Made by a program: the position numbers and the translations under genes. A stretch of DNA of 64,000 nt, from contig JAFWNM010000013.1 of the NCBI GenBank assembly GCA_017510335.1, positions 248,001 through 312,000 on the forward strand. The letters run 5' to 3'. Origin of the DNA: Paracoccaceae bacterium (GTDB lineage: Bacteria > Pseudomonadota > Alphaproteobacteria > Rhodobacterales > Rhodobacteraceae). The notes under the pieces were generated by a model that had not been told where the DNA came from, searched no databases, and saw only the letters and a program-made list of their open reading frames with translations. Position 1 is the first letter of the stretch; the number at the start of each line of letters is the position of its first letter. Positions 12,157 through 40,684 of the stretch are shown piece after piece.

Positions 12157-12343
12157 AGGGCCGGCGCGCAACACGCGCCCAAGTGGCGGGTGGGACTACG
12201 CCGCGCGCCCAAATACCCTTGCGTCACACGGATCAGGAAAGCCGAAAAAAAATGTTCAAACATGCCGCACACTATGGTCTATAGGGGGCACCCGCCATGA
12301 ATGGCGCGTGCCTAAATAAAAAAACACACCATGGGAGGAAATC

Positions 12344-13453
12344 ATGGATCGTCGTTCCTTTCTGAAAACCTCAGCACTGGGGGGCAGTGCGGCTGCCGCA
12401 TCGTCACTTGCTGCACCAGCTATTGCGCAGGGCCGGATAACTTGGCGCATGGTCACCACTTGGCCTCGGAACTTTCCCGGTCTGGGAACGGGCGCGCAGC
12501 GCGTGGCCGACCGGATCACTGCAGCCTCGGACGGGGCGCTGACTGTTGAAGTGTTTGCCGCGGGCGAAATGGTGCCCGCACTGCAATCGCTCGATGCCGT
12601 GATCGACGGCTCTGCCGAAATGAGCCACGGTGCGGCCTATTACTGGCAGAACAAATCCGTGGGCCTTTCCTTCTTCACCGGCGTGCCATTCGGGATGACG
12701 TCACGCGAATTGGCAGCATGGATGCGCATTCTGGGTGGTCAGGAACTTTGGGATGAAGTTTATGACCAGTTTGGCCTGCAAGGCTTCATGTCGGGCGATA
12801 CCGGCACGCAAGCTGGCGGCTGGTTCCAGAACGAACTGACAGGCATTGACGACATTCAGGGCATGCGTTTCCGCACCCCCGGTCTGGGCGGTCAGGTCTG
12901 GCAGAAAATGGGCGCAAGCGTCACCAACCTTGCGGGCGGTGAAATTTTTGCAGCCCTGCAATCAGGCGCGCTGGATGCCGCCGAATTCGTAGGCCCGTAT
13001 AATGACCGCGCGCTTGGGTTCCATCAGGTCCGCAAGCATTACTACACATCATCCTTCATTGAACCCGGGCTTGCCACCGAACTGGTTGTTGACAAGGCCA
13101 AATATCAGGAACTGCCTGATAATTTGCAGGCCATCATCCGCGATGCCTGTCAGGCGGAATATGACGAAGTACCGTCTGAATTCTATGCCAACGACCCCAT
13201 CGCGCTGGCTGATATGGTCAACAATCATGGCGTGACCGTGCACCGTGACTGGCCCGAAAGCATTCTGGAAGCAGGCGCGCGCGCCTCGCGTGAATTGCTG
13301 GAGGAAATTCTGGACAGCTCTGACCCGCTTAGCAAACGCGTGGCAGAAAGCTATGTGCAGAACCTGAACCTGTTGCGCACACGGACAGAAAACACCGACC
13401 TGACCTTTGCGCTGGCACGTCAGAAATATTTCGATATTTCCGATCTGGGCTAA
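12344..13453 (+). CDS. TRAP transporter substrate-binding protein (DctP family, TakP-like)
   Basis: 369 residues with a Tat signal peptide (M-D-R-R-S-F-L-K-T-S, hydrophobic stretch, A-P-A-I-A-Q cleavage). The mature part starts I-T-W-R-M-V-T-T-W-P and contains R-F-R-T-P-G-L-G-G at about residue 175, where the DctP carboxylate-binding arginine sits, and the stretch A-L-Q-S-G-A-L-D-A-A-E-F. The closest general type is TakP, which binds 2-oxo acids, so a carboxylate ligand is likely but not proven. GGAGG precedes the start. A hairpin after the gene probably limits read-through to dctQ and dctM. Confidence 0.9.
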   Translation: MDRRSFLKTSALGGSAAAASSLAAPAIAQGRITWRMVTTWPRNFPGLGTGAQRVADRITAASDGALTVEVFAAGEMVPALQSLDAVIDGSAEMSHGAAYYWQNKSVGLSFFTGVPFGMTSRELAAWMRILGGQELWDEVYDQFGLQGFMSGDTGTQAGGWFQNELTGIDDIQGMRFRTPGLGGQVWQKMGASVTNLAGGEIFAALQSGALDAAEFVGPYNDRALGFHQVRKHYYTSSFIEPGLATELVVDKAKYQELPDNLQAIIRDACQAEYDEVPSEFYANDPIALADMVNNHGVTVHRDWPESILEAGARASRELLEEILDSSDPLSKRVAESYVQNLNLLRTRTENTDLTFALARQKYFDISDLG

Positions 13454-13487
13454 GGCGGGACTTGCCTGTTCAGGGTTGAAATGACAC

Positions 13488-13517
13488 ATGGTCCCGACCT
13501 GTTTCGGGGCCATTTTT
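13488..13517 (+). terminator. Attenuator-like hairpin between dctP and dctQ
   Basis: ATGGTCCCGA (13488-13497) pairs with TCGGGGCCAT (13504-13513, one G-U pair) across a six-base loop and is followed by five Ts. Such partial terminators often give more binding protein than membrane subunit. Confidence 0.65.
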
Positions 13518-13548
13518 CCACAACCGCCCTATCCCAACGGAGGATGTC

Positions 13549-14106
13549 GTGACAGCGCTTGCTTATCTGATGCGCCTGATCAACCTGATCAATAAGGCGC
13601 TTGGCAATGTATTCATGTGGCTGGCCGTGGGAATAGTTGTCGTGTGTTTCTGGGTTGTGGTGGAACGCTATCTGTTCAGCACCACGCGCCTGTGGATGCA
13701 GGATCTTTATCCCTGGATGAATGGCGTCATGTTTACGGCTGTGGCGGGCTATGCACTGTATCGCAATGACCATGTGCGGGTTGATATTTTCTACAGGCCC
13801 GCATCCACGTTGCGCAAGGCGTGGCTGGATTTGCTGGGCGTATGTATTTTTCTGCTGCCTTTCGCATGGGTGGTCTGGTCGTATTGCTACACATTTGTAA
13901 TGCGTTCGATCGGGCTTTTGGAGGCCTCCTCGAACCCGGGCGGCATGCAGGGCCTGTTTGTGCTGAAAAGCTTTATTCTGGTTTTCGCGCTGACCATCGG
14001 GTTGCAGGGCATTGCCATGGGCATCCGGTCCATCCTGATCATTGCAGGGCGCGAGGATCTGGTGCCATCTGACTACCGCTACCAATATGACACGGAGCAC
14101 GCCTGA
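13549..14106 (+). CDS. TRAP transporter small permease (DctQ family)
   Basis: 185 residues, four membrane helices. The GTG start at 13549 is supported by CGGAGGA just upstream. The region R-L-W-M-Q-D-L-Y-P-W-M-N-G-V-M-F is typical of the DctQ family member of TakP-type systems (longer than the minimal DctQ). It pairs with the large permease encoded one base later. The substrate follows the binding protein. Confidence 0.9.
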   Translation: MTALAYLMRLINLINKALGNVFMWLAVGIVVVCFWVVVERYLFSTTRLWMQDLYPWMNGVMFTAVAGYALYRNDHVRVDIFYRPASTLRKAWLDLLGVCIFLLPFAWVVWSYCYTFVMRSIGLLEASSNPGGMQGLFVLKSFILVFALTIGLQGIAMGIRSILIIAGREDLVPSDYRYQYDTEHA

Positions 14107-14107
14107 C

Positions 14108-15496
14108 ATGGATCCTGTATTGATTGGCGAAATCCTGGCGGGATTGATGTTCTTCGGGGTTATCGGGTTTTTGCTGCTGGGGTTTCCCGTGGCATTCACG
14201 CTGGCGGGAACGTCGATACTGTTTGCCTATTTGGGGCTGTATTTCGGTGTGTTCGACATGTCGAACCTGCGCGCATTGGCGGGGCGCTACACGGGATACA
14301 TGATCAACGAAGTTCTGGTGGCAGTGCCCTTGTTCATCTTCATGGGGGTCATGCTGGAACGCAGCAATATTGCCGAACAATTGCTGTCCACGATGGGCCG
14401 GCTGTTTGGAGATATGCGCGGGGGCTTGGGTATTTCTGTCATTCTGGTGGGCGCCCTTCTGGCCGCGTCCACGGGCGTGGTGGGGGCAACTGTGGTCACC
14501 ATGGGGCTGATTTCGCTGCCTGCAATGCTGCGCGCAGGGTATGACCCCAAACTGGCCTGCGGGTCCATCTGCGCCTCGGGGACATTGGGCCAGATCATTC
14601 CGCCGTCGACCGTGTTGATTTTCATGGGCGACATGATCGCGGGCATGAATTCCCAGGTTCAGATGAGCCTTGGAAACTTCGCGCCCAAAACCGTGTCAGT
14701 GGGCGACCTGTTTGCGGGCGCGTTCATTCCCGGTCTGGTCATGGTGGCGCTGTATATTCTTTACTTCGTCTTCAAGGCGATTTTCGACCCCGAAAGCTGC
14801 CCTGCAACCCCTGTCCCGCCAGAAGAAAAACAGGGGTTGTGGAAGGAAATCATCACCGCGCTTGTTCCCCCGCTGCTGTTGATCACGTCTGTTCTGGGGT
14901 CCATCCTTGGCGGGATTGCCACCCCCACCGAAGCGGCATCCGTGGGCGCTGTGGGGGCCACGCTTCTGGCGGCGTTGCGCTGGCGGCTGTCGCTGGGCGT
15001 CTTTGTCGAGGTGGCGCGCCGCACTGCGGTCATCACGTCGATGATCTTCGTCATCTTGTTCGGCGCATCGGTCTTTGCCATCGTGTTCCGGCAAATGGGC
15101 GGCGACACGCTGGTTCGGGAATTCCTGACAGCCATGCCCGGCGGCGCCATGGGCGCGATGATCACAGTGATGATCATCATGTTCGTTCTGGGGTTCATTC
15201 TGGACACGTTCGAAATTATTTTCATCGTCCTGCCCATCACCGCGCCCACCCTGCTGTTGTTGGGAATTGACCCTGTGTGGCTGGGCGTCATGATCGGGGT
15301 GAACCTGCAGACATCATTCCTGACCCCGCCCTTCGGATTTTCGCTGTTCTACCTGCGCGGCGTCGCGCCCAATTCCGTCAGCACGGGCATGATCTACAAG
15401 GGGGCGGTTCCGTTCGTGTTGTTGCAGATCACGGCGATTGTGCTGTTGTTCATCTTCCCCGGTCTGGTTTTGTGGTTGCCGTCATTGCTGTTTTAG
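14108..15496 (+). CDS. TRAP transporter large permease (DctM family)
   Basis: 462 residues with about twelve membrane helices, the ion-coupled channel subunit. Features are M-L-E-R-S-x-I-A-E-Q-L-L, the conserved G-S-I-C-A-S-G-T-L-G-Q-I-I-P-P-S near residue 160, and L-T-P-P-F-G-F-S-L-F-Y near the C-terminus. I take ATG 14108, one base after the dctQ stop, instead of an in-frame upstream start that would lie inside dctQ. Confidence 0.92.
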   Translation: MDPVLIGEILAGLMFFGVIGFLLLGFPVAFTLAGTSILFAYLGLYFGVFDMSNLRALAGRYTGYMINEVLVAVPLFIFMGVMLERSNIAEQLLSTMGRLFGDMRGGLGISVILVGALLAASTGVVGATVVTMGLISLPAMLRAGYDPKLACGSICASGTLGQIIPPSTVLIFMGDMIAGMNSQVQMSLGNFAPKTVSVGDLFAGAFIPGLVMVALYILYFVFKAIFDPESCPATPVPPEEKQGLWKEIITALVPPLLLITSVLGSILGGIATPTEAASVGAVGATLLAALRWRLSLGVFVEVARRTAVITSMIFVILFGASVFAIVFRQMGGDTLVREFLTAMPGGAMGAMITVMIIMFVLGFILDTFEIIFIVLPITAPTLLLLGIDPVWLGVMIGVNLQTSFLTPPFGFSLFYLRGVAPNSVSTGMIYKGAVPFVLLQITAIVLLFIFPGLVLWLPSLLF

Positions 15497-30820: not shown

Positions 30821-30904
30821 GGGCGACGAGCTGCAAGGTGCGGCAGCGGACTGTAACTCCGCCGGGGAGACCCACGCCTGGTTCGATTCCAGGGTCGCCC
30901 ACCA
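30821..30904 (+). tRNA. tRNA-Tyr (anticodon GUA)
   Basis: 84 bases, class II with a long variable arm. The acceptor GGGCGAC pairs with GTCGCCC (30894-30900) and CCA is encoded. The anticodon loop is CTGTAAC. The T arm is CCTGG-TTCGATT-CCAGG. Its last 14 bases are the left attachment site of the element that follows, and the tRNA stays intact after integration. Confidence 0.95.
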
Positions 30905-30907
30905 TTT
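30891..30907. repeat. Left attachment site core (attL), in tRNA-Tyr
   Basis: AGGGTCGCCCACCATTT, covering the 3' end of tRNA-Tyr. The identical sequence is at 40668-40684. Confidence 0.85.
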
Positions 30908-31136
30908 TCATTCCTAAGTGCTTGAAAGTGTTGGTTTTTCTGAAAACTTCTGACACGCATACGCCCTTTAGTCTGCCCTTATGGCGTTACTGCAAAGCAA
31001 CACCACGAAAGGCGATTTGGCTGCCAAGCTGGTTGTATCGTGCGAGAAAAGCTCGCGAAGCCAACCACTAAATTTTGAAAGTTGAGCAAAATCGCTACGC
31101 TTTTGCTTTCTAAGCAGCGGCATTTGTAGCGCTAGA

Positions 31137-31499
31137 CTAGCGGCAAGTGATTTCCAACTGATCGAAAATACCCTGAAAGCGGCTAAGTGAATAGCCTTCA
31201 ACGGCTGTGCCGTTGTCAACTCGCATCACCGTCACGAAGATCGGTTCTCCGCCCAACATGATCTCTCGCGTAGGGTGAACCTCGTAAGCTTCGCCGAGTT
31301 GCACGATCAATGCCCGGAACGGATAATTCCACGGGTTGACAGCGGTCATGTGCGAAACAACGCATCCAAGCGTGTCATCAAGCGAACTTGTCGAAAGGAA
31401 ACTAACGCGGGGTGGATCATTCCTGCCCGTGACAGCGGTAGCGCAAGCGGAAACCGCTAACAAAGTAGAGGCGATAATTGCTTTCTGTAGCATTTGCAT
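31137..31499 (-). CDS. Small putative lipoprotein (element cargo)
   Basis: 120 residues with a lipoprotein signal (I-I-A-S-T-L-L-A-V-S-A-C, cysteine about residue 19). The mature part is about 100 residues with no known motif. AAGGGGA in front of ATG 31499 supports the start. It is AT-richer than its neighbours, as is the 230-base noncoding stretch between it and the tRNA. It sits at the distal end of the element, where satellites and prophages often carry accessory genes. An exclusion, immunity or fitness role is possible but not shown. Confidence 0.6.
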   Translation of the reverse strand: MQMLQKAIIASTLLAVSACATAVTGRNDPPRVSFLSTSSLDDTLGCVVSHMTAVNPWNYPFRALIVQLGEAYEVHPTREIMLGGEPIFVTVMRVDNGTAVEGYSLSRFQGIFDQLEITCR

Positions 31500-31571
31500 G
31501 CGAGTCCCCTTTCAATCTCTTTTGCCGCGAAACCAAACCCCATTCAACCTTCTGTTGTCAGCAGCGGTGAA

Positions 31572-31778
31572 TCAAGCGGCTTTCGAAGCTATCCGAAACC
31601 GTTTCGGCCTATATGCGCGCAACACGGCTTGCGGCTCAACCTGCGCTAGGTGACAGACTGCCACAAAGTCGCGTGAGCCTATCCATGCCGTATCCTTTGG
31701 CGTTGCCCCCTTCGCCGCGTCATGCAGGCCAGCGACTAGCACCGCCCGCCATAGGTGCAAGTCAGCATTCTGCGTCAT
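31572..31778 (-). CDS. Small phage-type protein of unknown function
   Basis: 68 residues from ATG 31778, which has GGGGGA just upstream; a longer frame to 31859 has no ribosome site. The pattern L-W-R-A-V-L-V-A-G-L-H-D-A ... W-I-G-S-R-D-F ... V-L-R-A-Y is one I associate with short proteins in Rhodobacteraceae prophage regions. It may bind DNA, but no defined domain is visible. Confidence 0.55.
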   Translation of the reverse strand: MTQNADLHLWRAVLVAGLHDAAKGATPKDTAWIGSRDFVAVCHLAQVEPQAVLRAYRPKRFRIASKAA

Positions 31779-31934
31779 CTGATCCCCCATTGCAGAAAGG
31801 GCAGGCCCGAAAGCCTGCCCGAATGACGCCACGCCCGCAAAGAAAAAACAGGGCCGCATCTTGTCGGGGTTCTGTCGTGACCTTCCGACTATACCGGGCC
31901 GCTTTGTGCTGATTTCCGGGCGCGGCCTGCCCTT

Positions 31935-32567
31935 TCAAGCTGCGTCGTGCGCTAAGCGCGTGGATGCCTGCGCGGCCTCGGATCGAATGCCCGCAATCTG
32001 GTGACGCAATTCATGGGCGCGTGCTGCCGCCGCCTGATCAGCCAACCATTGCTGATAGCGCGCCTCGCCTGCTTCCGCCTCGGCAAGCTGCGCCTCAAGC
32101 TGCGCCAAAGCATCAGGCGCGTTGTCTACCATTGCGCGCAGGCTTGCCACGCGGCGGGCCTCATCGCGGGCCATTGCCGCCGCCTTCCGGCTATCCAGCT
32201 TACGCAGAACGCCACGCAAGTGGCAGGATTCCACAATCAGCGTTGCACGCTGCGCGACGGCAGGCGATGCCGGGGCAGTGCCGGAAAGTCCGAGTGCATC
32301 CCAGCGCCAGTTTACATGCCGGGCGGTGCGGAAAAATTCCGTCCGTAGCCGTTCGCGCTCTGCTTCTGTTGGCGTGCGCGTAGTGTCCGTGCCGTTGAGC
32401 ATCCAGCCAAGGTCACGCAGGCGCAGGATTGCATCATCACGGCTGCGCGGGCCGGTCATCGCGCGGTTATAGTCATCACGGGCAAGCGGCCAATCTGGCG
32501 TATTTTCCGGGTCGGCCCAAAGTTCCGACGGGTCAAGCACCATTGTAAGGTCGATTTGCTGGGTCAT
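31935..32567 (-). CDS. Phage-type hypothetical protein with C-terminal coiled coil
   Basis: 210 residues. The N-terminal half is mixed (L-T-M-V-L-D-P-S-E-L-W-A-D-P). The C-terminal half from about residue 120 is a long alanine-, glutamate- and arginine-rich helix likely to form a coiled coil. GGAGG at proper distance precedes ATG 32567. It starts three bases after the stop of the 32571-32936 gene, so the two are cotranscribed with terL. Function unknown. Confidence 0.6.
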   Translation of the reverse strand: MTQQIDLTMVLDPSELWADPENTPDWPLARDDYNRAMTGPRSRDDAILRLRDLGWMLNGTDTTRTPTEAERERLRTEFFRTARHVNWRWDALGLSGTAPASPAVAQRATLIVESCHLRGVLRKLDSRKAAAMARDEARRVASLRAMVDNAPDALAQLEAQLAEAEAGEARYQQWLADQAAAARAHELRHQIAGIRSEAAQASTRLAHDAA

Positions 32568-32570
32568 CGG

Positions 32571-32936
32571 TTAAGCCTCCGCTTTCGGTAGAAGGTAGCC
32601 GCCCGCGCCATGCGCAGCGGCGGTCGGTGTCGTGTCTGGGGTATCTGCACGGGGCAGAAGATACCCACCAACGCGCGCAACGGCGGGCTGCGCGGGCCGG
32701 GTATCATCATCAGCGCGGGGCAGTTTGTAGCCGCTCAACCGCGCCGGACCTGTTGGCGCAGCATTGGCGACGGGCGCAGGCTGTCCGGGTCGCGCGCCCA
32801 AGATAACAGGCGCGGCCATGTTTGTGGCAGGCCGGGCATTGTGGGCAGATGCAGGGGCAGTGCCGATATTCACCAGAAGGCGGGCCAAGCGGTCAACAGC
32901 GGCTTCAATCGTCGGGGTTATACTGGGGTTTGCCAT
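32571..32936 (-). CDS. Hypothetical protein with three GYxLPxA repeats
   Basis: 121 residues, proline- and alanine-rich, probably disordered after residue 30. Three copies of a short motif occur in the C-terminal half: S-G-Y-K-L-P-R-A-D, G-G-Y-L-L-P-R-A-D and G-G-Y-L-L-P-K-A-E, spaced about 22-26 residues apart, the last at the very end. GAGGAA precedes the start, which lies inside the last codons of terL. The repeats look like docking peptides for a partner; this is inference. Confidence 0.6.
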   Translation of the reverse strand: MANPSITPTIEAAVDRLARLLVNIGTAPASAHNARPATNMAAPVILGARPGQPAPVANAAPTGPARLSGYKLPRADDDTRPAQPAVARVGGYLLPRADTPDTTPTAAAHGAGGYLLPKAEA

Positions 32937-34360
32937 GATAATTCCTCTGTCAGTCGGGCAAGGTTGTCGGTCGTTTTTCGGGTCAGTATCCAGCCGGTGG
33001 CATTTTTCCGGGTCAGGGACGCCACGGCCCCCGCAACAGCGTTTGCACGGTCATCATGCGCGCCCGGTGCATGGTCGATTGTATCCCGCCCGCTGCGACT
33101 GGTGCGACGTTCCAGCCCTGCGAATTGACGGGCGGTGATCTGGCAAGGTGGCAGTTCAACGCGCCCTGAATTCAGCGCCGCAAGGAATTCCAGATAAAGC
33201 GCGCTTCGGTCCTGTTCGCTTACTTCGTATTTGATTCCATGTTTCTGGAATTCATCGCGCGGCCATCGCCCCGCATATCGGTCGCCCGATATAGCCTTGA
33301 TCCCGTATCGGGTCAGCACTTGCGCGAATTCTGCCACGATCCCGGCGGGTGATCCCTTGCGGCCTGTCACCAGATCAATAATAGCCGTGTCACCTTCGCG
33401 GTGTGCAATCGACATTGTGAATTCATCCGCGCCGCCGCCTGCCGGGTCAACAAAGGCGACATAGGAAAGCCCCCGCTGCGCTGGCAGTTCTAAAGGCTTG
33501 GGCCGGGTGCATTGTGCGATAAGGTCAACATCCAGAAAGCTGGCAATGTCTGATCTGAATTCGGCAAGGTATTCGGCGCGCGCGGCCTCTGGATCGTCGC
33601 GCATGGCGTCATCAACAACCGATTGCGGCAATAGCGGGTTCATGGTCCGACTTGGGGCTTGTGCCACCAGAACGCGGCTTTCCCCGTCATCTGCGAAGGC
33701 CCGCTTGAACGTATCCCACAAAACCCCGCGCTTTGCGTAGGGCGATGACAGGGCAATCAACCGCCCGCCCAAAGTCGCAAGGGCTGGACGTATTGCCGCG
33801 ATGATTTCACGGTCAGGGCTTGCCCCGTCAACATGCCAGAACGCGATTTCATCGCAGATACACGCGGCCAGCGTATAGCCCCGGACAGATCTGTGTGACG
33901 CGGTGGTGATCTCGATGACGCAACGGTTATTCAGTTCGATCTGTTCCGAGTTCTCGCGCAGCACCATGCGCCGCAGCATCGGGTTTTCATTCATCAACCC
34001 GCTTGTGTAGCGCATGACGGCGCGCGCCTGTTTCCGGTCAGCAGCGATAACCATAACAGTGGCAACCTCGCCGGGTGCCAGCTTGGCGCGGTAATCTTGA
34101 AACGCTGCAAGATACACGGCCAGAAAGGCCGCTGCATGGGATTTGCCGCCCCTGCGCCCGATTGCCAGCCATAGTTCAAGGAAAGCCCCCTGTGGCGTGT
34201 CTGCGCGGCCTGTAAGCGCCTTGAACGTGTCCAGTTCGGTGGCGTCCAGTTCCAGACCGTAAAAGCCCGAAAGCAACGCCCGCCATGCGGTGAAGGATTG
34301 CCCCCCGAAAACATCGCCAAACAAGGCCGGGTCTGTCATCGCTTGGCGTATGTCGATCAT
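32918..34360 (-). CDS. Phage terminase large subunit (ATPase-nuclease)
   Basis: 480 residues from ATG 34360. The packaging ATPase has Walker A G-R-R-G-G-K-S (68-74) and Walker B C-I-C-D-E (168-171), followed by coupling motif L-S-S-P. The nuclease domain shows V-D-P-A-G (D305), S-G-D-R-Y (D360) and H-D-D-R-A-N-A (D436-437), the three acidic clusters of the RNase H-like fold. All catalytic residues are present, so the enzyme looks functional. The start overlaps the preceding micro-ORF by four bases. No portal gene follows, which is unusual for a phage genome. Confidence 0.9.
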   Translation of the reverse strand: MIDIRQAMTDPALFGDVFGGQSFTAWRALLSGFYGLELDATELDTFKALTGRADTPQGAFLELWLAIGRRGGKSHAAAFLAVYLAAFQDYRAKLAPGEVATVMVIAADRKQARAVMRYTSGLMNENPMLRRMVLRENSEQIELNNRCVIEITTASHRSVRGYTLAACICDEIAFWHVDGASPDREIIAAIRPALATLGGRLIALSSPYAKRGVLWDTFKRAFADDGESRVLVAQAPSRTMNPLLPQSVVDDAMRDDPEAARAEYLAEFRSDIASFLDVDLIAQCTRPKPLELPAQRGLSYVAFVDPAGGGADEFTMSIAHREGDTAIIDLVTGRKGSPAGIVAEFAQVLTRYGIKAISGDRYAGRWPRDEFQKHGIKYEVSEQDRSALYLEFLAALNSGRVELPPCQITARQFAGLERRTSRSGRDTIDHAPGAHDDRANAVAGAVASLTRKNATGWILTRKTTDNLARLTEELSWQTPV

Positions 34361-34458
34361 GCCAGCCCCCAAGCGACAAGGGCCAGCACATAGCAGGCAA
34401 GGCCAAGTGACAGGGCAAGCGCCGGGTCGCGGGTCAGGACATAGGCAAGGGTAATCAT
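34357..34458 (-). CDS. Micro-ORF, single-span hydrophobic peptide
   Basis: 33 codons giving M-I-T-L-A-Y-V-L-T-R-D followed by a hydrophobic helix to the end. AAGGGGG lies before ATG 34458. The stop overlaps the terL start in ATGA. It overlaps the previous micro-ORF in the same way. It could be a small membrane peptide or only a translational coupler. Confidence 0.5.
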   Translation of the reverse strand: MITLAYVLTRDPALALSLGLACYVLALVAWGLA

Positions 34459-34595
34459 GCGCGCCCCCTTACCGCCTGCGCCAGATCGGCCAGCAGGGCA
34501 AGCGCCGCGCCTGTCGATAGCGCCACCTGCGCCACCTCTTGCCCATTGCGCCAAATATGCAGAACAGGGCCGGGTCTGATCGTCACCAGCATCAT
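34455..34595 (-). CDS. Micro-ORF, 46 residues
   Basis: It starts M-M-L-V-T-I-R-P-G-P-V-L-H and is rich in A, L and V without a clear membrane helix. AGGGGC lies upstream of ATG 34595. It shares ATGA overlaps with both neighbours, which is the main evidence that it is translated. No family recognised. Confidence 0.5.
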   Translation of the reverse strand: MMLVTIRPGPVLHIWRNGQEVAQVALSTGAALALLADLAQAVRGRA

Positions 34596-34783
34596 GGCGC
34601 GCGCCCCTCTTGCTTATCCAGCACCAGCAGCGCGGCCCGCATGTCAGAACGCAACAGCGCCGCCTGTGAAGGTGTCAGGGTGCAGGCCATCGCTTTTGCG
34701 GGTGTCGATAAGGTCAGGGTCAGAACGCGCCCTGTAGGTGCTACTGTGACGCGCGCAGACTGTGGCGTAATCGCTTCAACCAT
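34592..34783 (-). CDS. Small hypothetical protein, 63 residues
   Basis: 63 residues with a predicted beta-rich start (A-R-V-T-V-A-P-T-G-R-V-L-T-L-T-L) and a helical end. It overlaps the end of the terminase-small-like gene by 8 bases and the next micro-ORF by four. No family recognised. Confidence 0.55.
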   Translation of the reverse strand: MVEAITPQSARVTVAPTGRVLTLTLSTPAKAMACTLTPSQAALLRSDMRAALLVLDKQEGRAP

Positions 34784-35183
34784 TGGCCCGCGCCTTCCCT
34801 GCGATGTAGTCTTGAAGGCTTGTCACGTCGCGCGCCTTACGCTCTAGCCCAAGATCGGCCAGCAGACGGCGCAGCGCATTGGCGATTGTGGCATATCGGC
34901 TTGCGTCAAAGTCCTGCCCTTGTGCCAGTTCTGTTTCCCGTTCTTCACACCAGCAGGCCAGCGTTGCAGCGCGCGCGATTAGGTGGCGTTGTGCCTCTGT
35001 AAGATCGCCGCCTAGATCGCTTTCAATCGTGGCGGTAATCTCTCGGAACCTGCGCGCCATCATGCTACGCCCATCAACCCCGGCCAATACTATGGCCCCG
35101 GTCCCTTTGCGGGTGCTGAATTGTGGCGGTGGTGGTGCTTTGCCCATGCTACGCTTTGCCTTGTCTATGCCCTGCGCGCCCAT
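34776..35183 (-). CDS. Putative terminase small subunit-like protein
   Basis: 135 residues. After a basic tail, residues 38-110 form helices (S-M-M-A-R-R-F-R-E-I, L-T-E-A-Q-R-H-L-I-A-R-A-A-T-L-A, Y-A-T-I-A-N-A-L-R-R-L-L-A-D-L-G-L-E-R-K-A-R-D-V). This pattern recurs next to terminase genes in alphaproteobacterial prophages. A DNA-recognition role for the packaging motor is inferred from place and size. ATG 35147 is an alternative start. It is the first gene after the iteron array. Confidence 0.6.
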   Translation of the reverse strand: MGAQGIDKAKRSMGKAPPPPQFSTRKGTGAIVLAGVDGRSMMARRFREITATIESDLGGDLTEAQRHLIARAATLACWCEERETELAQGQDFDASRYATIANALRRLLADLGLERKARDVTSLQDYIAGKARANG

Positions 35184-35562
35184 TTAAGGGCAGGTTATAG
35201 GTGGGATTGATAAAGAATAGCACTATAAGTCGCTGTAATCACTATTTCATTCTGTTACATCGGGCGCAGTAATAGGAACCGAACCGCCTTCCAGCCATCG
35301 ACCGGACAGAAAAACCCCGCGAAAGGGCGATATGTTTGGCGGGATATAGCGGCTATTGTTCAACAGCAATCGCTTGGGGTGATCTTGCTTTCCAGTAAAG
35401 CGCAATCCCCTTTTCCAAGGGCGCGCGCCCGCCCCAAGGGGCGCAGCAACCCTTAGGGGGTGTGGGGGATATACTGGAACAGGGGTTGGAAGGGGGTTGG
35501 AATAGGGGTTGGAACATACTTTGGAACCGGGTTGGAACAGGGGTTGGAAGGGGGTTGGAAGG
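35184..35562. other. Intergenic region with AT-rich tract and iteron array, candidate origin
   Basis: No gene. On the terminase side an AT-rich tract lies at about 35208-35265, with GATAAAGAATAG and CACTATAAG. A short GC dyad (CGCCCC/GGGGCG) lies at about 35430-35443. The repeat array occupies 35470-35560. Iterons beside an AT-rich tract and a replication gene are the usual parts of a replication origin. The region must also carry the promoter for the terminase operon. Confidence 0.6.
35470..35560. repeat. Helically phased decamer array (iterons)
   Basis: Exact GGGGTTGGAA starts at 35482, 35493, 35505, 35540 and 35551. CGGGTTGGAA starts at 35528, with another copy at 35581 inside the end of the replication gene. 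Degenerate copies start at 35470 and 35517. The steps between the eight starts from 35470 to 35551 are 12, 11, 12, 12, 11, 12 and 11 bases, about one DNA turn each, so all sites face one side of the helix. The array ends two bases from the stop of the replication gene. Confidence 0.85.
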
Positions 35563-37860
35563 TCATTTTTCCCCCTGTTCCGGGTTGGAAGTATCAGGGA
35601 AAGTCAGGAAGGAACGCGGCTTGGAAGGTGGCCCATCGGTGGCAATCTTGATCTTGCCATCGGTCAGCAGACAATCCATTGCCGCCTTGAACGCTTTCTT
35701 TGTGCAACCCTCGCCTTGCGGGTGCTGTGCGAATAGGTTTGGCGCATAGGTTGGCCCGCCTGCATGATTGACGCGCCGCCCCTGATCGGTGAATTCGCGT
35801 AGCAGCTTCAGGAAAACCCGCTCGGCCTTGGCGCTGGCCGCAACGCGGTCAAGCCCCGTGACGGGTGCATCTGCCACGAAAACACCGTTCTGCCATGTGA
35901 GGGCGATTTCTGCGCCTGTGCGGCTGTAATTGGCCTTCATGGTGCGCAACAAGCGCGCGTCCGGGTTCGGCTCATATCCATCTTGCACAACGCGGCTAAG
36001 GTATAGGCGCGACCGAACCGAATTGTTCCAGCCTGTCGAACCGCTTGTTCCGCTGCCCGAATTCAGGCCAGACAAGGAAGGGTGTGCAAGCATGACAACT
36101 GCGCATTCATGCCTGATCGCCAAGCCCCGCAACATGCCGATGAATTGCCGCGCCTGCGCCCTGTCGTTTTCATTACCGGGGAAGTAATCGGCCAGCGTAT
36201 CCAACACCAGCAGGTCCGGGCGGTCACGCTGTAGCAGTTCCTCGATAGCGTCTAGCAGGCCGGTTGCTTCCAGCGTGCCGCCCTTTGCAAGTGTCGCCAA
36301 TAGCGCATCCTCGCCCGCAAGGCTGCGAAGGGTCAGGGCTTCCAGATCGGCCAGGGTGACGCCCTCGGCCTGCACAATATCCGCAAGCCTTCGGTGCAGT
36401 TCCGCCTTGTCATCTTCTGCCGAAAGGTAAACCGCTTTGCCCGGTCGGACTGCAAAGCCAAGCCATGCGCGTTCTAGGGCAGTGCTGGCCGCAAGCTGTA
36501 AGGCGCAAAGGCTTTTACCTGTGCCACCATCGCCCCCGAATAGGGTCACGGTATTGGACGGGATAAGATCGCGCACATGCCACGCGCGCTCTGGCACGGG
36601 CTGGCCGTCCAGATCACAAGCCCGGAAAACCCCGGCTCTGAAGCTGGCAACCTGCGCGGCACGCTTTGCCCTTTCCTCATCCTCTTTTTTCTGTGCCGGG
36701 TCTGAATTGGCTTTGGGTGCGCTGTATGCGTCCAAGGGTGGCAAAGGTGGCATGTCATCCATTGGCTTTTCCCATGCGTTCTGTGGCGCGCTGTGCTGCC
36801 CTGTGGCGGGCACTTCGTGCCTCGGACGATCAAGCCCCGCTTCCAACGCATAGGCCCGCACTGCGCCCTTAAAGTCGCCCCCATGTTCAAAGTGACAGAA
36901 CAGGTCGAAAGCATCCCCAAAGCGGTGGCCGCTTTTCGTTGCTTGCCCGATTTCCTGCGCGTGATCGCTGCCCGAAAGACTGATCCAGAATTCGCCGCAA
37001 TCGCGTGTTGCATAGCTGCCCGAGGACTGAAACGGACTGCGCCAATCGTTAGTCGATCCCGCTTGCGAATAGCCATAGCGCGCTAACAGATCGGCCACTG
37101 TATGCCCTGCGTTGAAGTGATCCACGGGCGACACGTCATCGCCCTGCACCGTAGCCTTGCGCTGCGCTGCGCGCCGCTCTCTGGCCTCTTGCGCCTCTTG
37201 TGCTGCCCTTGCCCTGTCGGCGGCTATGCCTGCCCGCTGCACCATGATCGCGCAATCTGGCGTCAATTCCAAAAGGCCCGCGCCCTTGTGGATTGCGTGC
37301 TGATAGAATTCGCCCCTGTTTGGCAGACAGACGGGCTGCGCTGGACGTGACAAAGCCCGGTCAGGGATTAGGACGCCTTCGCTTGCTTGTTCCAGCAGGT
37401 CAAAAAATGCGTTTTGCACGTCTGCGAATTCAGCCCCCGGAACATCTGATTTCAAAGGAACAAGCGCGCGCCATTTTCTATTCGTTTCGACTGCGCCCCG
37501 GCTTGAATAGATCAAGCGCGCTGCATCCCCGATGACCTCGGACAATGCCGCGTCAACCTCGGACAGGTCCAGATTGTTTTCGTCAACATCAAGGGTCAGC
37601 CATCGGAAAGCCCCGCGCGCCCTTTGCACCTCATGGGTTCGCGCGTCATGTTCTGCATAGGTTGACGGGATAAACCATTGCCCGCGCTCTTTCGGCACGC
37701 TTGGCGGGTTCAACACCATCTTTGCAATCTCTTGCCCGGTGATCGTCTGATATGGCTTCCCCGCGCTTTCGTGCGGGTTCGGCCTGCCATCGGAAAGGGT
37801 CAAGGCGCGCGTGTCGCTTTGCCCGTATCCCGTCACAAAGGCGGGTTTTTCGTTCTGCAT
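35563..37860 (-). CDS. Primase/helicase-like replication protein with RepA-type ATPase
   Basis: 765 residues. The N-terminal 220 residues resemble a primase-type region (F-R-W-L-T-L-D-V-D-E-N-N and L-I-Y-S-S-R-G-A with downstream basic R-K-W-R-A-L-V-P-L). A linker rich in charged residues follows (about 220-400). The C-terminal RecA-like ATPase has Walker A G-G-D-G-G-T-G-K-S-L at about 440 and Walker B L-L-V-L-D-T-L near 530, as in RepA/AAA_25 helicases. A winged-helix-like tail closes the protein. CGAGG precedes the start. The iterons at its 3' end are the natural binding sites. Confidence 0.82.
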   Translation of the reverse strand: MQNEKPAFVTGYGQSDTRALTLSDGRPNPHESAGKPYQTITGQEIAKMVLNPPSVPKERGQWFIPSTYAEHDARTHEVQRARGAFRWLTLDVDENNLDLSEVDAALSEVIGDAARLIYSSRGAVETNRKWRALVPLKSDVPGAEFADVQNAFFDLLEQASEGVLIPDRALSRPAQPVCLPNRGEFYQHAIHKGAGLLELTPDCAIMVQRAGIAADRARAAQEAQEARERRAAQRKATVQGDDVSPVDHFNAGHTVADLLARYGYSQAGSTNDWRSPFQSSGSYATRDCGEFWISLSGSDHAQEIGQATKSGHRFGDAFDLFCHFEHGGDFKGAVRAYALEAGLDRPRHEVPATGQHSAPQNAWEKPMDDMPPLPPLDAYSAPKANSDPAQKKEDEERAKRAAQVASFRAGVFRACDLDGQPVPERAWHVRDLIPSNTVTLFGGDGGTGKSLCALQLAASTALERAWLGFAVRPGKAVYLSAEDDKAELHRRLADIVQAEGVTLADLEALTLRSLAGEDALLATLAKGGTLEATGLLDAIEELLQRDRPDLLVLDTLADYFPGNENDRAQARQFIGMLRGLAIRHECAVVMLAHPSLSGLNSGSGTSGSTGWNNSVRSRLYLSRVVQDGYEPNPDARLLRTMKANYSRTGAEIALTWQNGVFVADAPVTGLDRVAASAKAERVFLKLLREFTDQGRRVNHAGGPTYAPNLFAQHPQGEGCTKKAFKAAMDCLLTDGKIKIATDGPPSKPRSFLTFPDTSNPEQGEK

Positions 37861-37961
37861 CGTATAGCCTCGAACATTTGCCCAAGGCGCAGCAGCGTGC
37901 TATTATTCAGGCAATCCGCATTGCCTATCTTAGCCCGTCCGCGCGCCAATCGCGGGCGGGA

Positions 37962-38162
37962 TTATTTTTGAAGGATCGCGGGTTCTGGCGTCCCTGTCGG
38001 GTCCAGATTGCAAGCCGTTTGCAGGTCATCCAGCGCGGCCAGCAGGTGCCTTGCAAGGTCAGGGTGATCTTCTGCCCTGTCGCAAAGTAGCTGCACCAGC
38101 GCGGCGCTATGGCCTGCGCAACGGGTCATCAAGGGGCGGGTGAATTCGCGTTGCCAGTTCAT
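37962..38162 (-). CDS. Small hypothetical protein, 66 residues
   Basis: It starts M-N-W-Q-R-E-F-T-R-P-L at ATG 38162, which shares one base with the stop of the AlpA-like gene (TGATG). The rest is helical with several H, C and D residues (L-C-D-R-A-E-D-H-P-D-L-A-R-H-L-L). No known family. The tight link to AlpA suggests they act together or are only cotranscribed. Confidence 0.55.
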   Translation of the reverse strand: MNWQREFTRPLMTRCAGHSAALVQLLCDRAEDHPDLARHLLAALDDLQTACNLDPTGTPEPAILQK

Positions 38163-38410
38163 CACGCGGCCCCCTGCATTGCCTGCGCGGCTTCCCACGC
38201 TTCCAGATCGGATAAGCGCCAATAATTTAGGCGATTGATCTGCATAGGGGCAGGAAACCCCAAGTCAGGATCGCGCACCCAACGCCACAAGGTGACGTGG
38301 CTTTTCTGGTAACGCGCTTGCACCTGTGGCCCTGTTAGGAATGTTTGGCGCGGGTCATGCCCATGCGTTGCCTTGAAGGCTGCGCGGGAAAGTTCGGTCT
38401 GTGTTTGCAT
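38162..38410 (-). CDS. AlpA-like helix-turn-helix regulator/excisionase
   Basis: 82 residues. From about residue 24 it reads F-L-T-G-P-Q-V-Q-A-R-Y-Q-K-S-H-V-T-L-W-R-W-V-R-D-P-D-L-G-F-P-A-P, a short MerR/AlpA-like winged helix. It then has R-L-N-Y-W-R-L-S-D-L-E-A-W, the usual closing part. AlpA proteins switch excision and early gene expression in P4 and in Gram-negative phage-inducible islands. AGAGGAA supports the start. Confidence 0.8.
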   Translation of the reverse strand: MQTQTELSRAAFKATHGHDPRQTFLTGPQVQARYQKSHVTLWRWVRDPDLGFPAPMQINRLNYWRLSDLEAWEAAQAMQGAA

Positions 38411-38472
38411 TTCATTTCCTCTCTTGGAAGGTCATGAGTGCAAACTGCCAGCCTATTTAGGGCTGCGGTGCT

Positions 38473-39168
38473 TCATAGAATGGACGATCTTTCAGCCGGA
38501 ACGATCAAAGTTGCGGTGGCAAAGGTTGTATGGTCGCGCCAAGCATCAACAATGCGGATTGCGTCCCGGCACGCTTTCCATACCCAATCCTCGGAAAAAG
38601 CAAGTTCGCGCATTGTGCGCAAGGGAAGGTCAATCCCTTCCAAGCCGGGACAGATCGCCGCCCTTGCCGCTTTCGGAAAGATCGGCAAGGCAAGCCACAT
38701 GGGAATGACGGGCCGCGCCTCATAGAAAGCCCGCCGCGCGTTCTTGTCGGGTGTCGCTTGTCTGTGTCCATTTGGCCAGACCGTTTCGAAAGTGTCAGGG
38801 GCGGTCGCGGCGTCATAATCGACACGGCCCGCCGGGACCGTTGCTAGATCGCAGGCGGCGTTTATCGAAAGCCCGCTGTCCAGATGTTTCAGCCAAACCC
38901 AAGCGCCAAACGCCCGGCGTTCCGCCCGTATCAACCCACGCCGCACTACGCTTTCCGCTTTACCTTTCTTGAAGCGCCGCAACAGCTCGGGCGCATGCCT
39001 GCCCTGCGCTTTATGGACATATGCCGCAAAAGCTTCGTGCAAATCCTGCCGTGCCTGCGCCTCGCCTTCCGCAGAGTAGGCAAGCCATGCGATGTAAAGC
39101 CACGCGCAAGGCAAGGGATTGTCAGGGCAGAAGGGCATTTCAAATTCCGCAAATCCTGCGGCCATCAT
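38473..39168 (-). CDS. Hypothetical protein coupled to the integrase
   Basis: 231 residues. Its ATG overlaps the integrase stop (ATGA). The sequence is tryptophan- and alanine-rich with a basic helix (L-L-R-R-F-K-K-G-K-A-E) around residue 65. Two segments look helical, including F-G-A-W-V-W-L-K-H-L near residue 90. No catalytic motif or membrane span stands out. It is a good candidate for an element-specific function because it is full length and lies between two control genes. Confidence 0.6.
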   Translation of the reverse strand: MMAAGFAEFEMPFCPDNPLPCAWLYIAWLAYSAEGEAQARQDLHEAFAAYVHKAQGRHAPELLRRFKKGKAESVVRRGLIRAERRAFGAWVWLKHLDSGLSINAACDLATVPAGRVDYDAATAPDTFETVWPNGHRQATPDKNARRAFYEARPVIPMWLALPIFPKAARAAICPGLEGIDLPLRTMRELAFSEDWVWKACRDAIRIVDAWRDHTTFATATLIVPAERSSIL

Positions 39169-40523
39169 CCCCGCGCCCCCTGTAGCTGGACAACCTTTGC
39201 AGGTTTACGCCCTGCCAAGAATTCGCCCCATGCCGCCATCATTGCGCGCCGCTTCTCTACCTGATCGGCGCGATTGTATGCCTGTGCAACTTTCGACCCA
39301 ACTTTGTGGAACAACGCGACTTCGGCCAAGTCCCCGTCAAAATTGGTGCGCTCTGCAATCCATGTTCTAAACGTGCTGCGCAACCCATGCGGAACCGCCT
39401 GTTCCCCCGTCTTGGCGTCCACATAGCCCTTGCCGCCTGTTTTCTGATCGGCCTCATGGATAACGCGCATCATCTTGCCCAAGGTGGCGTCAGACAACGC
39501 GCCGCCCTTTGGTGCCCAGAATACAAGGTCGGAACCGTCCAGCCTTGGCAAGGCTTCCAGCAGGGCAAGCATGGGTTCTGTCAGGGGAATACGCCGTGCG
39601 GTTTCTTTGTCAGGTATCTTTGACGCTTGCCGCCCCGGCTGGATTGTCCAGACCTTTGCGGCCACGTCGATTTCGCCCCAAGTCGCAAAACGGATCGCGC
39701 CGGATCGGGTCGCGGTCATTGCCTGAAACGCCAACGCCTGCGCGCCCATGCCATCGCGCGTCTGTAGCGCCTGCCACCAGCGCGACACGTCATCAAGCTG
39801 CAACGCGGGGTAATTCTCGCCCCCTGCCACCTTGGACGGTGCAGGCAATACCATGTCCAGATTGCCACGCCAGCGCGCGGGATTGTCGCCTGTGCGGTAG
39901 CCCTGCACGGTGGCCCATGCCAGCACCTTTTCGACACGTTCCCGAACCTTTACGCCCGTGACGTTCTTTTCATCCCAAAGCGGGGTCAGAACGCGCAGCA
40001 CGTCCTGCAATCCAATGTCCTGCACGGCCATCTTGCCCAGATCGGGCAAAGCATAAAGTTCAACCGTGCGCTGCCATTGTTCGCGGTATTTGTCTGTGCT
40101 GAATTCCTTGATCTTCTGCGCCGCGAATTTTTGCCACGCTTCTGCAAAGGTCATCCCCCTGCGCTGCGCCGCAATAAGCGCCGCCTGTGTGGCCTTTCTC
40201 TCTGCTATGGGGTCAACGCCCCGCAACAGCATGTCCTTGGCCTCTCTGGCCCTGTCACGCGCTGCGCCAAGCAAAACATCGGGATAAGCCCCCAAGCCAA
40301 TTTCGCGTTTCTTGCGCCCGCGCTGGATCGTGCCATCTGATAAGCGTGATTCGGTCCAGTCGCCGTATCGGGTGCGCAACACCCAAGACTTAGCCCCGCT
40401 AGGCCATATCTGGATATGCAGGCCCGACACGCCCCCCACGGCCACTTTGACAGGCTTTTCGCCGCCGGGGTGCTTTAGGTTCTTGATCTGCGCCGGGGTA
40501 AGTTCTTTTGCTCTCGGTGGCAT
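39165..40523 (-). CDS. int: Tyrosine integrase, P4/DUF4102 type
   Basis: 452 residues. The N-terminal arm-binding domain (L-T-P-A-Q-I-K-N-L and I-G-L-G-A-Y-P-D-V) is the DUF4102 type of tRNA-targeting integrases. A SAM-like core-binding domain follows. Catalytic residues are R273 (T-A-T-R-S-G-A-I-R), H379 and R382 (H-G-L-R), H406 and Y416 (A-Y-N-R-A). All are present, so it should be active. It begins about 145 bases from attR, the usual position for an integrase. Confidence 0.93.
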   Translation of the reverse strand: MPPRAKELTPAQIKNLKHPGGEKPVKVAVGGVSGLHIQIWPSGAKSWVLRTRYGDWTESRLSDGTIQRGRKKREIGLGAYPDVLLGAARDRAREAKDMLLRGVDPIAERKATQAALIAAQRRGMTFAEAWQKFAAQKIKEFSTDKYREQWQRTVELYALPDLGKMAVQDIGLQDVLRVLTPLWDEKNVTGVKVRERVEKVLAWATVQGYRTGDNPARWRGNLDMVLPAPSKVAGGENYPALQLDDVSRWWQALQTRDGMGAQALAFQAMTATRSGAIRFATWGEIDVAAKVWTIQPGRQASKIPDKETARRIPLTEPMLALLEALPRLDGSDLVFWAPKGGALSDATLGKMMRVIHEADQKTGGKGYVDAKTGEQAVPHGLRSTFRTWIAERTNFDGDLAEVALFHKVGSKVAQAYNRADQVEKRRAMMAAWGEFLAGRKPAKVVQLQGARG

Positions 40524-40551
40524 ATCGGCCCGCCCTTCATTCTGCCCTTAG

Positions 40552-40569
40552 TTACGTTCTGTAACGTAA
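40552..40569. promoter_or_regulatory. Dyad upstream of the integrase, candidate operator
   Basis: TTACGTT and AACGTAA flank a four-base centre, 29 bases before the integrase start. It could be an AlpA or repressor site; this is inference. Confidence 0.4.
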
Positions 40570-40667
40570 TGGCATGAAAGGCGATGAACAAGTGAAAACC
40601 ACTATTTTCCAATAAAACAAGGCGCTGCGCAACATGGCGCAACGCCCTGAAATGTCAGGTTGGGTCT

Positions 40668-40684
40668 AGGGTCGCCCACCATTT
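40668..40684. repeat. Right attachment site core (attR)
   Basis: AGGGTCGCCCACCATTT, identical to 30891-30907. The next base differs (C here, T at the tRNA), which sets the right limit of the repeat. Confidence 0.85.

Follow-up and report, generated by a model that had tools for sequence, protein, structure and literature searches.

A tRNA-integrated element of a Paracoccaceae bacterium as a likely phage satellite with its own terminase and an exchangeable gene slot

A 64,000-nucleotide stretch of the genome of a Paracoccaceae bacterium (assembly GCA_017510335.1, contig JAFWNM010000013.1, positions 248,001 to 312,000; here called the window) carries a 9.8 kb integrated element at positions 30891-40684, inserted at a tRNA-Tyr gene. 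This element is likely a phage satellite that combines its own terminase, with a small (TerS) and a large (TerL) subunit, with swappable size-setting parts, and borrows the portal of a helper phage. It probably spreads by filling the shells of other viruses. As in satellites generally, an integrative element with replication and packaging functions was found without a complete set of particle genes. A broader reading, which we rate somewhat below an even chance, is that it represents a widespread, undescribed satellite family in which TerS-TerL is fixed, the slot behind TerL is exchanged (coat-plus-scaffold, coat, tape-measure or helical assembly proteins), no portal is present and the motor docks on foreign portals. 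Such satellites would supply the parts determining particle size, of the head and in some cases of the tail length, and borrow the rest.

The element is inserted at a tRNA gene

The borders are marked by the following features.

30821-30904, plus strand: tRNA-Tyr (GTA), integration target, predicted by ARAGORN; its 3′ end is part of the attachment (att) repeat
30891-30907: att repeat, copy at the tRNA end, 17-bp identity with 40668-40684
40668-40684: att repeat, copy at the integrase end, 17-bp identity with 30891-30907

A preliminary description, made from the sequence alone, had proposed 17-bp att repeats at tRNA-Tyr. The ARAGORN prediction, the identity of the two repeats and a control with 27 other windows of the same locus, which gave at most 11 bp, bore this out. 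The uninterrupted site, with both flanks joined and no element between them, is matched at 74% identity by two genomes of the genus (G322 and G327); a third (G295) also fits an empty site. Just inside both ends lies an imperfect 55-nt direct repeat (30962-31016 and 40531-40585; 71%), and positions 30964-31018 are 95% identical to a stretch at the corresponding end of a second copy in the same genome.

Gene content of the element

All called genes are located on the minus strand. From the integrase towards the tRNA gene they are arranged as follows.

39165-40523, minus: tyrosine integrase (Int), 452 aa (Pfam/PHROG)
38473-39168, minus: variable gene after int, 231 aa, no family; candidate accessory gene
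38162-38410, minus: AlpA/excisionase-like helix-turn-helix protein, 82 aa (PHROG 4745, 7.9e-8; PHROG 66, 3.4e-5)
37962-38162, minus: small conserved protein, 66 aa (open reading frame up to 86 aa), kept in other loci
35563-37860, minus: replication protein (Rep), 765 aa, with an AAA_25/RepA-type helicase domain (Pfam/PHROG)
34776-35183, minus: TerS-like protein, 135 aa as called
34455-34595, minus: small conserved protein, 46 aa, kept in other loci
32918-34372, minus: TerL, 484 aa, intact (PHROG 1.8e-25; invariant motifs)
32571-32936, minus: slot protein 1, 121 aa, no family (no Pfam/PHROG match)
31935-32567, minus: slot protein 2, 210 aa, with homologues at four further loci
31572-31859, minus: small 95-aa protein, matched in 5 of 12 other loci
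31137-31499, minus: 120-aa protein with a lipoprotein-like start (by eye)

The one-way series of int, AlpA-like gene, rep, TerS-like gene and intact TerL gene agrees with the preliminary description, as does the finding that no head, tail or lysis gene besides TerL was recognised in the element. The AlpA match is weak, and the corresponding Pfam HTH_17 match lies below the cut-off. The TerS-like protein matches the fold of HK97 TerS and is identified as TerS by fold only; its true start is probably further in than called. Neither Pfam nor PHROG matched the 231-aa protein, which, like slot protein 1 and the 120-aa protein, had no match in 12 other loci; in relatives different genes occupy its position after int. 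Judged by its position, slot protein 2 is a candidate capsid-size or assembly factor. Among the 12 of 13 window proteins scanned, no Pfam or PHROG match to a portal, coat, protease or connector was obtained, and none to HNH. P4 alpha primase, Sid, Psu and Delta were absent from the names of the Pfam/PHROG matches of window proteins, with no model search aimed at them.

The replication protein with origin-like repeats, also noted in the preliminary description, was recovered as the AAA_25/RepA-type protein together with repeats at the end of its gene.

35475-35560: iteron-like repeats (TGGAACAGGGGTTGGAA...), candidate origin

By eye, the iterons at the end of rep vary between elements. Roseobacter phages PV211010-PV211014 (29-33 kb) encode a replication protein approx. 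34% identical to that of the element, which might reflect gene exchange with helpers.

Distribution and common layout of the family

Eight TerL copies were found in six of 38 genomes of the genus. The genome of the window itself harbors a second, different copy at tRNA-Glu, whose TerL is 80% identical. Both ends were available for seven of the eight; all seven are flanked by repeats of 15-58 bp at a tRNA and measure 8.5-10.9 kb. Four of them sit at tRNA-Tyr, one at tRNA-Glu and the others at two different tRNA-Gly sites. Of 295 sampled genomes from the taxonomic family only seven gave any match, suggesting that the element family is rare or patchy, and identity above 30% occurred in the own genome only. 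A TerL-guided scan of a collection with one genome per species (84,980 species) yielded 74 loci, a lower bound because two peptide patterns were used; five of them are genus copies again (L040, L041, L042, L052 and L099). By record title, Rhodobacterales account for 30 of the 74 and Gammaproteobacteria, such as Marinobacter, Halomonas and Alteromonas, for 16, while the remainder belong to Rhizobiales, Acidobacteria, Nitrospira and others. The family ranges over Alphaproteobacteria and Gammaproteobacteria; beyond these two classes the TerL relatives are more distant.

The layout was compared in 86 loci, comprising the 74 scan loci, nine viral contigs, the two copies of the own genome (that in the window and the second one) and G299. 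An integrase of more than 250 aa lies upstream of TerL in the same direction in 39 loci; many of the others end at contig borders. Within 10 kb downstream a tRNA gene was present in 30 of these 39 and none was found in the other nine. In all 30 elements with a tRNA, a stretch of 12-63 bp of the tRNA gene is repeated in the DNA before int; this repeat exceeded every control window in 29 elements and tied in L041 (17 versus 17). In some elements the repeat is placed inside the tRNA instead of at its end. The 30 elements are 6.4-16.0 kb long, use nine tRNA types (Tyr, Gly, Glu, Arg, Asn, Cys, Ser, Leu and Pro) and display the core order int, variable gene, AlpA, rep, TerS, TerL, slot, tRNA. The gene order recurs in relatives and is not limited to tRNA-Tyr. 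L050 and L066 belong to the same element family but are rearranged: the integrase lies at the opposite end in reversed direction, and the tRNA is found on its far side.

Variable content of the slot behind TerL, with no portal recognised in the slots tested

The region between TerL and the tRNA differs in content from element to element. A slot protein of 220-266 aa occurs in 14 loci and is all-helical in a structure model of one member; another family of 210-232 aa is present in five loci including the window. A major coat protein was found in the slot of 12 loci, seven Gp13-like and five HK97-type (clusters and profile matches; L083 by cluster only), and the seven Gp13-like loci also contain a scaffold-like protein. 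Ten loci (L003, L004, L005, L012, L048, L051, L054, L074, L088 and L098) encode a tape-measure protein, a few a head protease, and L003 a baseplate hub. In compact elements the tape-measure genes are positioned at 12208-15060 (L048), 13595-15076 (L051), 13159-14835 (L054) and 12876-15200 (L098); their products could set the length of a borrowed tail.

Pfam was run on 140 slot proteins from 40 loci, each 60 aa or longer; the two own copies and G299 are separate from this set. No portal or connector was detected among the 19 families matched in all, which include coat, scaffold, protease, tape measure and two HNH types; the HNH-type matches come from relatives, in two of their slot proteins. For 13 of the 40 loci the right border was placed by hand and host genes may be included. 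With PHROGs, 25 of the 112 families matched by these proteins were listed; they gave the same picture and added a tail-fibre family, matched by two proteins. For 35 further loci, not cleared of a portal, matches were listed for 25 of 129 families. The coat proteins show that the expectation of a family always without head genes was wrong; "without portal" fits the slots tested. This correction is more interesting than the original claim, as the motor is fixed, size-setting parts are exchanged and no portal was recognised where tested.

History of the terminase and of the slot

In a TerL tree of 73 rows, a clade of 40 (support 99/97) unites Rhodobacterales and gammaproteobacterial rows. All three viral contigs of the portal-bearing type, L006 and L114 by profile matches and L115 by cluster, are placed outside this clade. 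On L006 (13144-15888) a phage portal is fused to a topoisomerase IB-like domain, and the adjoining TerL is 42% identical to that of the window. The TerL genes of L007-L011 are 41-42% identical to it.

The ratio of nonsynonymous to synonymous substitution rates (dN/dS) was 0.14-0.21 for TerL (five copies) and 0.12-0.17 for TerS (three copies). As judged from the sequence comparisons, purifying selection acts on TerL, TerS and Int, all three of which are intact. This bears on the view that the element is a decaying prophage whose structural genes were lost in this strain. A terminase normally adjoins head genes, and isolated head or tail genes in relatives would suit such decay. The maintained genes, the compact layout shared by 30 elements across nine tRNA types, the presence of two different copies in the same genome and the lack of a recognised portal among 140 slot proteins all contradict it, so that decay is largely refuted and very improbable. 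Moreover, a relative combining portal, head and tail, by which the preliminary description would have recognised a deleted prophage, did not turn up. Its proposal of a satellite holds in that the element is integrative, belongs to a real family and has a TerL under purifying selection; it needs amendment for the head genes in some relatives.

Coat presence requires nine changes on the TerL tree (38 scored rows), close to the shuffled mean of 9.8, and 104 of 300 shuffles do as well. With five slot types, one of whose labels is loose, 18 changes were counted, whereas shuffled labels averaged 21.9 and came down to this number in 6 of 300 shuffles. Since the five types are less scattered than chance, part of the slot is inherited; the tree and the slot content together indicate some inheritance and much exchange. 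A different reading is a reduced capsid-forming satellite, still mobile, whose ancestors had a whole head module of coat, portal and connectors and lost parts of it. In its favour, head or tail genes persist in some relatives (scaffold with coat, protease, tape measure or baseplate hub). However, the coats derive from two different Pfam families and have a patchy distribution across the TerL tree, a pattern suggestive of repeated gain or exchange, and no portal-bearing intermediate was seen in the slots scanned. We consider this origin unlikely.

Conserved sites near terS and at the element ends

A non-coding block precedes terS, and a 9-mer recurs at three places.

35185-35365: conserved non-coding block before terS
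35234-35256, minus: core of this block, AACNGAATGAAATANTGANNACA
30973-30981 (plus), 35185-35193 (minus) and 40542-40550 (plus): 9-mer CTGCCCTTA, near both ends and just before terS

A 24-nt motif before terS scored high in 10 of 21 Rhodobacterales elements (log-likelihood 151.9 versus 75-82 in shuffles), while the signal was weak in 13 gammaproteobacterial elements (82 versus 64-70). With up to two mismatches, it occurred at four sites in the 38 whole genomes of the genus, all before terS in an element; the reversed control gave none. Block and motif may constitute a packaging site or a promoter. The 9-mer was present 14 times in 30 elements (2.2 expected) and twice in the flanks (2.3 expected), and its three positions in the window have counterparts in the second own copy and in L041. 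It is a candidate regulator or integrase-arm site.

The conserved block is relevant to the idea that TerS-TerL is an interference weapon, aimed either at helper DNA, which it would cut or misdirect, or at helper portals, which it would block, the element being packaged by the helper terminase. Other satellite families interfere with helper packaging (PMC5052747), and the coat and tape-measure proteins of the slot might serve as poisons. Against this, TerS and, in part of the family, the conserved pre-terS block travel with TerL, as expected for a recognition and packaging unit. An interference weapon is thus improbable.

Possible source of the portal

A helper was not found in a search with two families, PF04860 (portal) and PF05065 (coat). 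The own genome contains one match to each, both in one cluster (L120, contig C36, 55-13910) that is gene transfer agent (GTA)-like, its gene order resembling that of the Rhodobacterales GTA. Among five other carrier genomes, the PF04860 portal is single in four and absent from one. That the only portal and coat genes of these families lie in a GTA-like cluster suggests an incoming phage as helper. The same location would allow the element to ride in host GTA particles. GTA heads hold only about 4 kb, less than the element, and relatives occur in Gammaproteobacteria, which are not known to have that GTA; the probability of such a ride is negligible.

Proposed mode of action

If the element is a satellite as outlined above, Int together with the AlpA-like protein would excise it from tRNA-Tyr, and replication would start from the iterons beside rep. 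Upon helper infection it would produce its own TerS-TerL motor, which would select satellite DNA at a site near terS and dock on the portals of helper-made procapsids. The 121- and 210-aa slot proteins would adapt the helper particle, most likely its size, to the small genome. In relatives, the coat protein, scaffold or tape measure of the slot would have the same role.

Comparison with known satellites

The element resembles phage-inducible chromosomal islands (PICIs) of the SaPI type in being a small integrated satellite with an integrase, a regulator (AlpA-like, a weak match) and its own replication gene, and pac SaPIs in having its own TerS. PICI TerS works with the TerL of the helper (PMC5052747), whereas the present family carries TerL too and does not show this reliance. 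Capsid-forming PICIs encode coat, protease, portal, connectors and HNH (PMC10690885). They share with the element its own TerS (here by fold) and TerL, and with some relatives coat protein and protease. They differ by portal and connectors, missing from the scanned slots of the family; the element itself showed no portal, coat, protease or connectors of its own. It therefore fits neither the PICI nor the capsid-forming PICI definition.

The Mulch and Flayer satellites of Streptomyces phages likewise have their own small and large terminase, but carry portal, coat and scaffold and no recognised primase (PMC10690885). PICMI, a small marine satellite of Vibrionaceae without capsid-remodelling genes, sits at fis, and no terS homologue was found in it (PMC10803314); the present element is at tRNA-Tyr and possesses a TerS-like gene. 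VEIMEs and tycheposons are marine elements proposed as satellites (PMC10803314, PMC11389934), and tycheposons border tRNA genes (PMC10872708); the likeness concerns these features. With VEIMEs and tycheposons set apart, the combination of a fixed motor, exchanged size-setting parts and no recognised portal was not seen among the classes covered in the available parts of PMC10690885, PMC5052747, PMC10803314, PMC4936722, PMC11389934 and PMC12595487.

The satellites compared either add a small subunit to steal the motor of the helper or build a whole head. If our reading is true, keeping the motor and swapping only the size-setting parts would be a third satellite strategy. The family would then offer a system to ask how strictly a terminase must match its portal, and whether a satellite coat or tape-measure protein re-sizes the head or tail of a helper.
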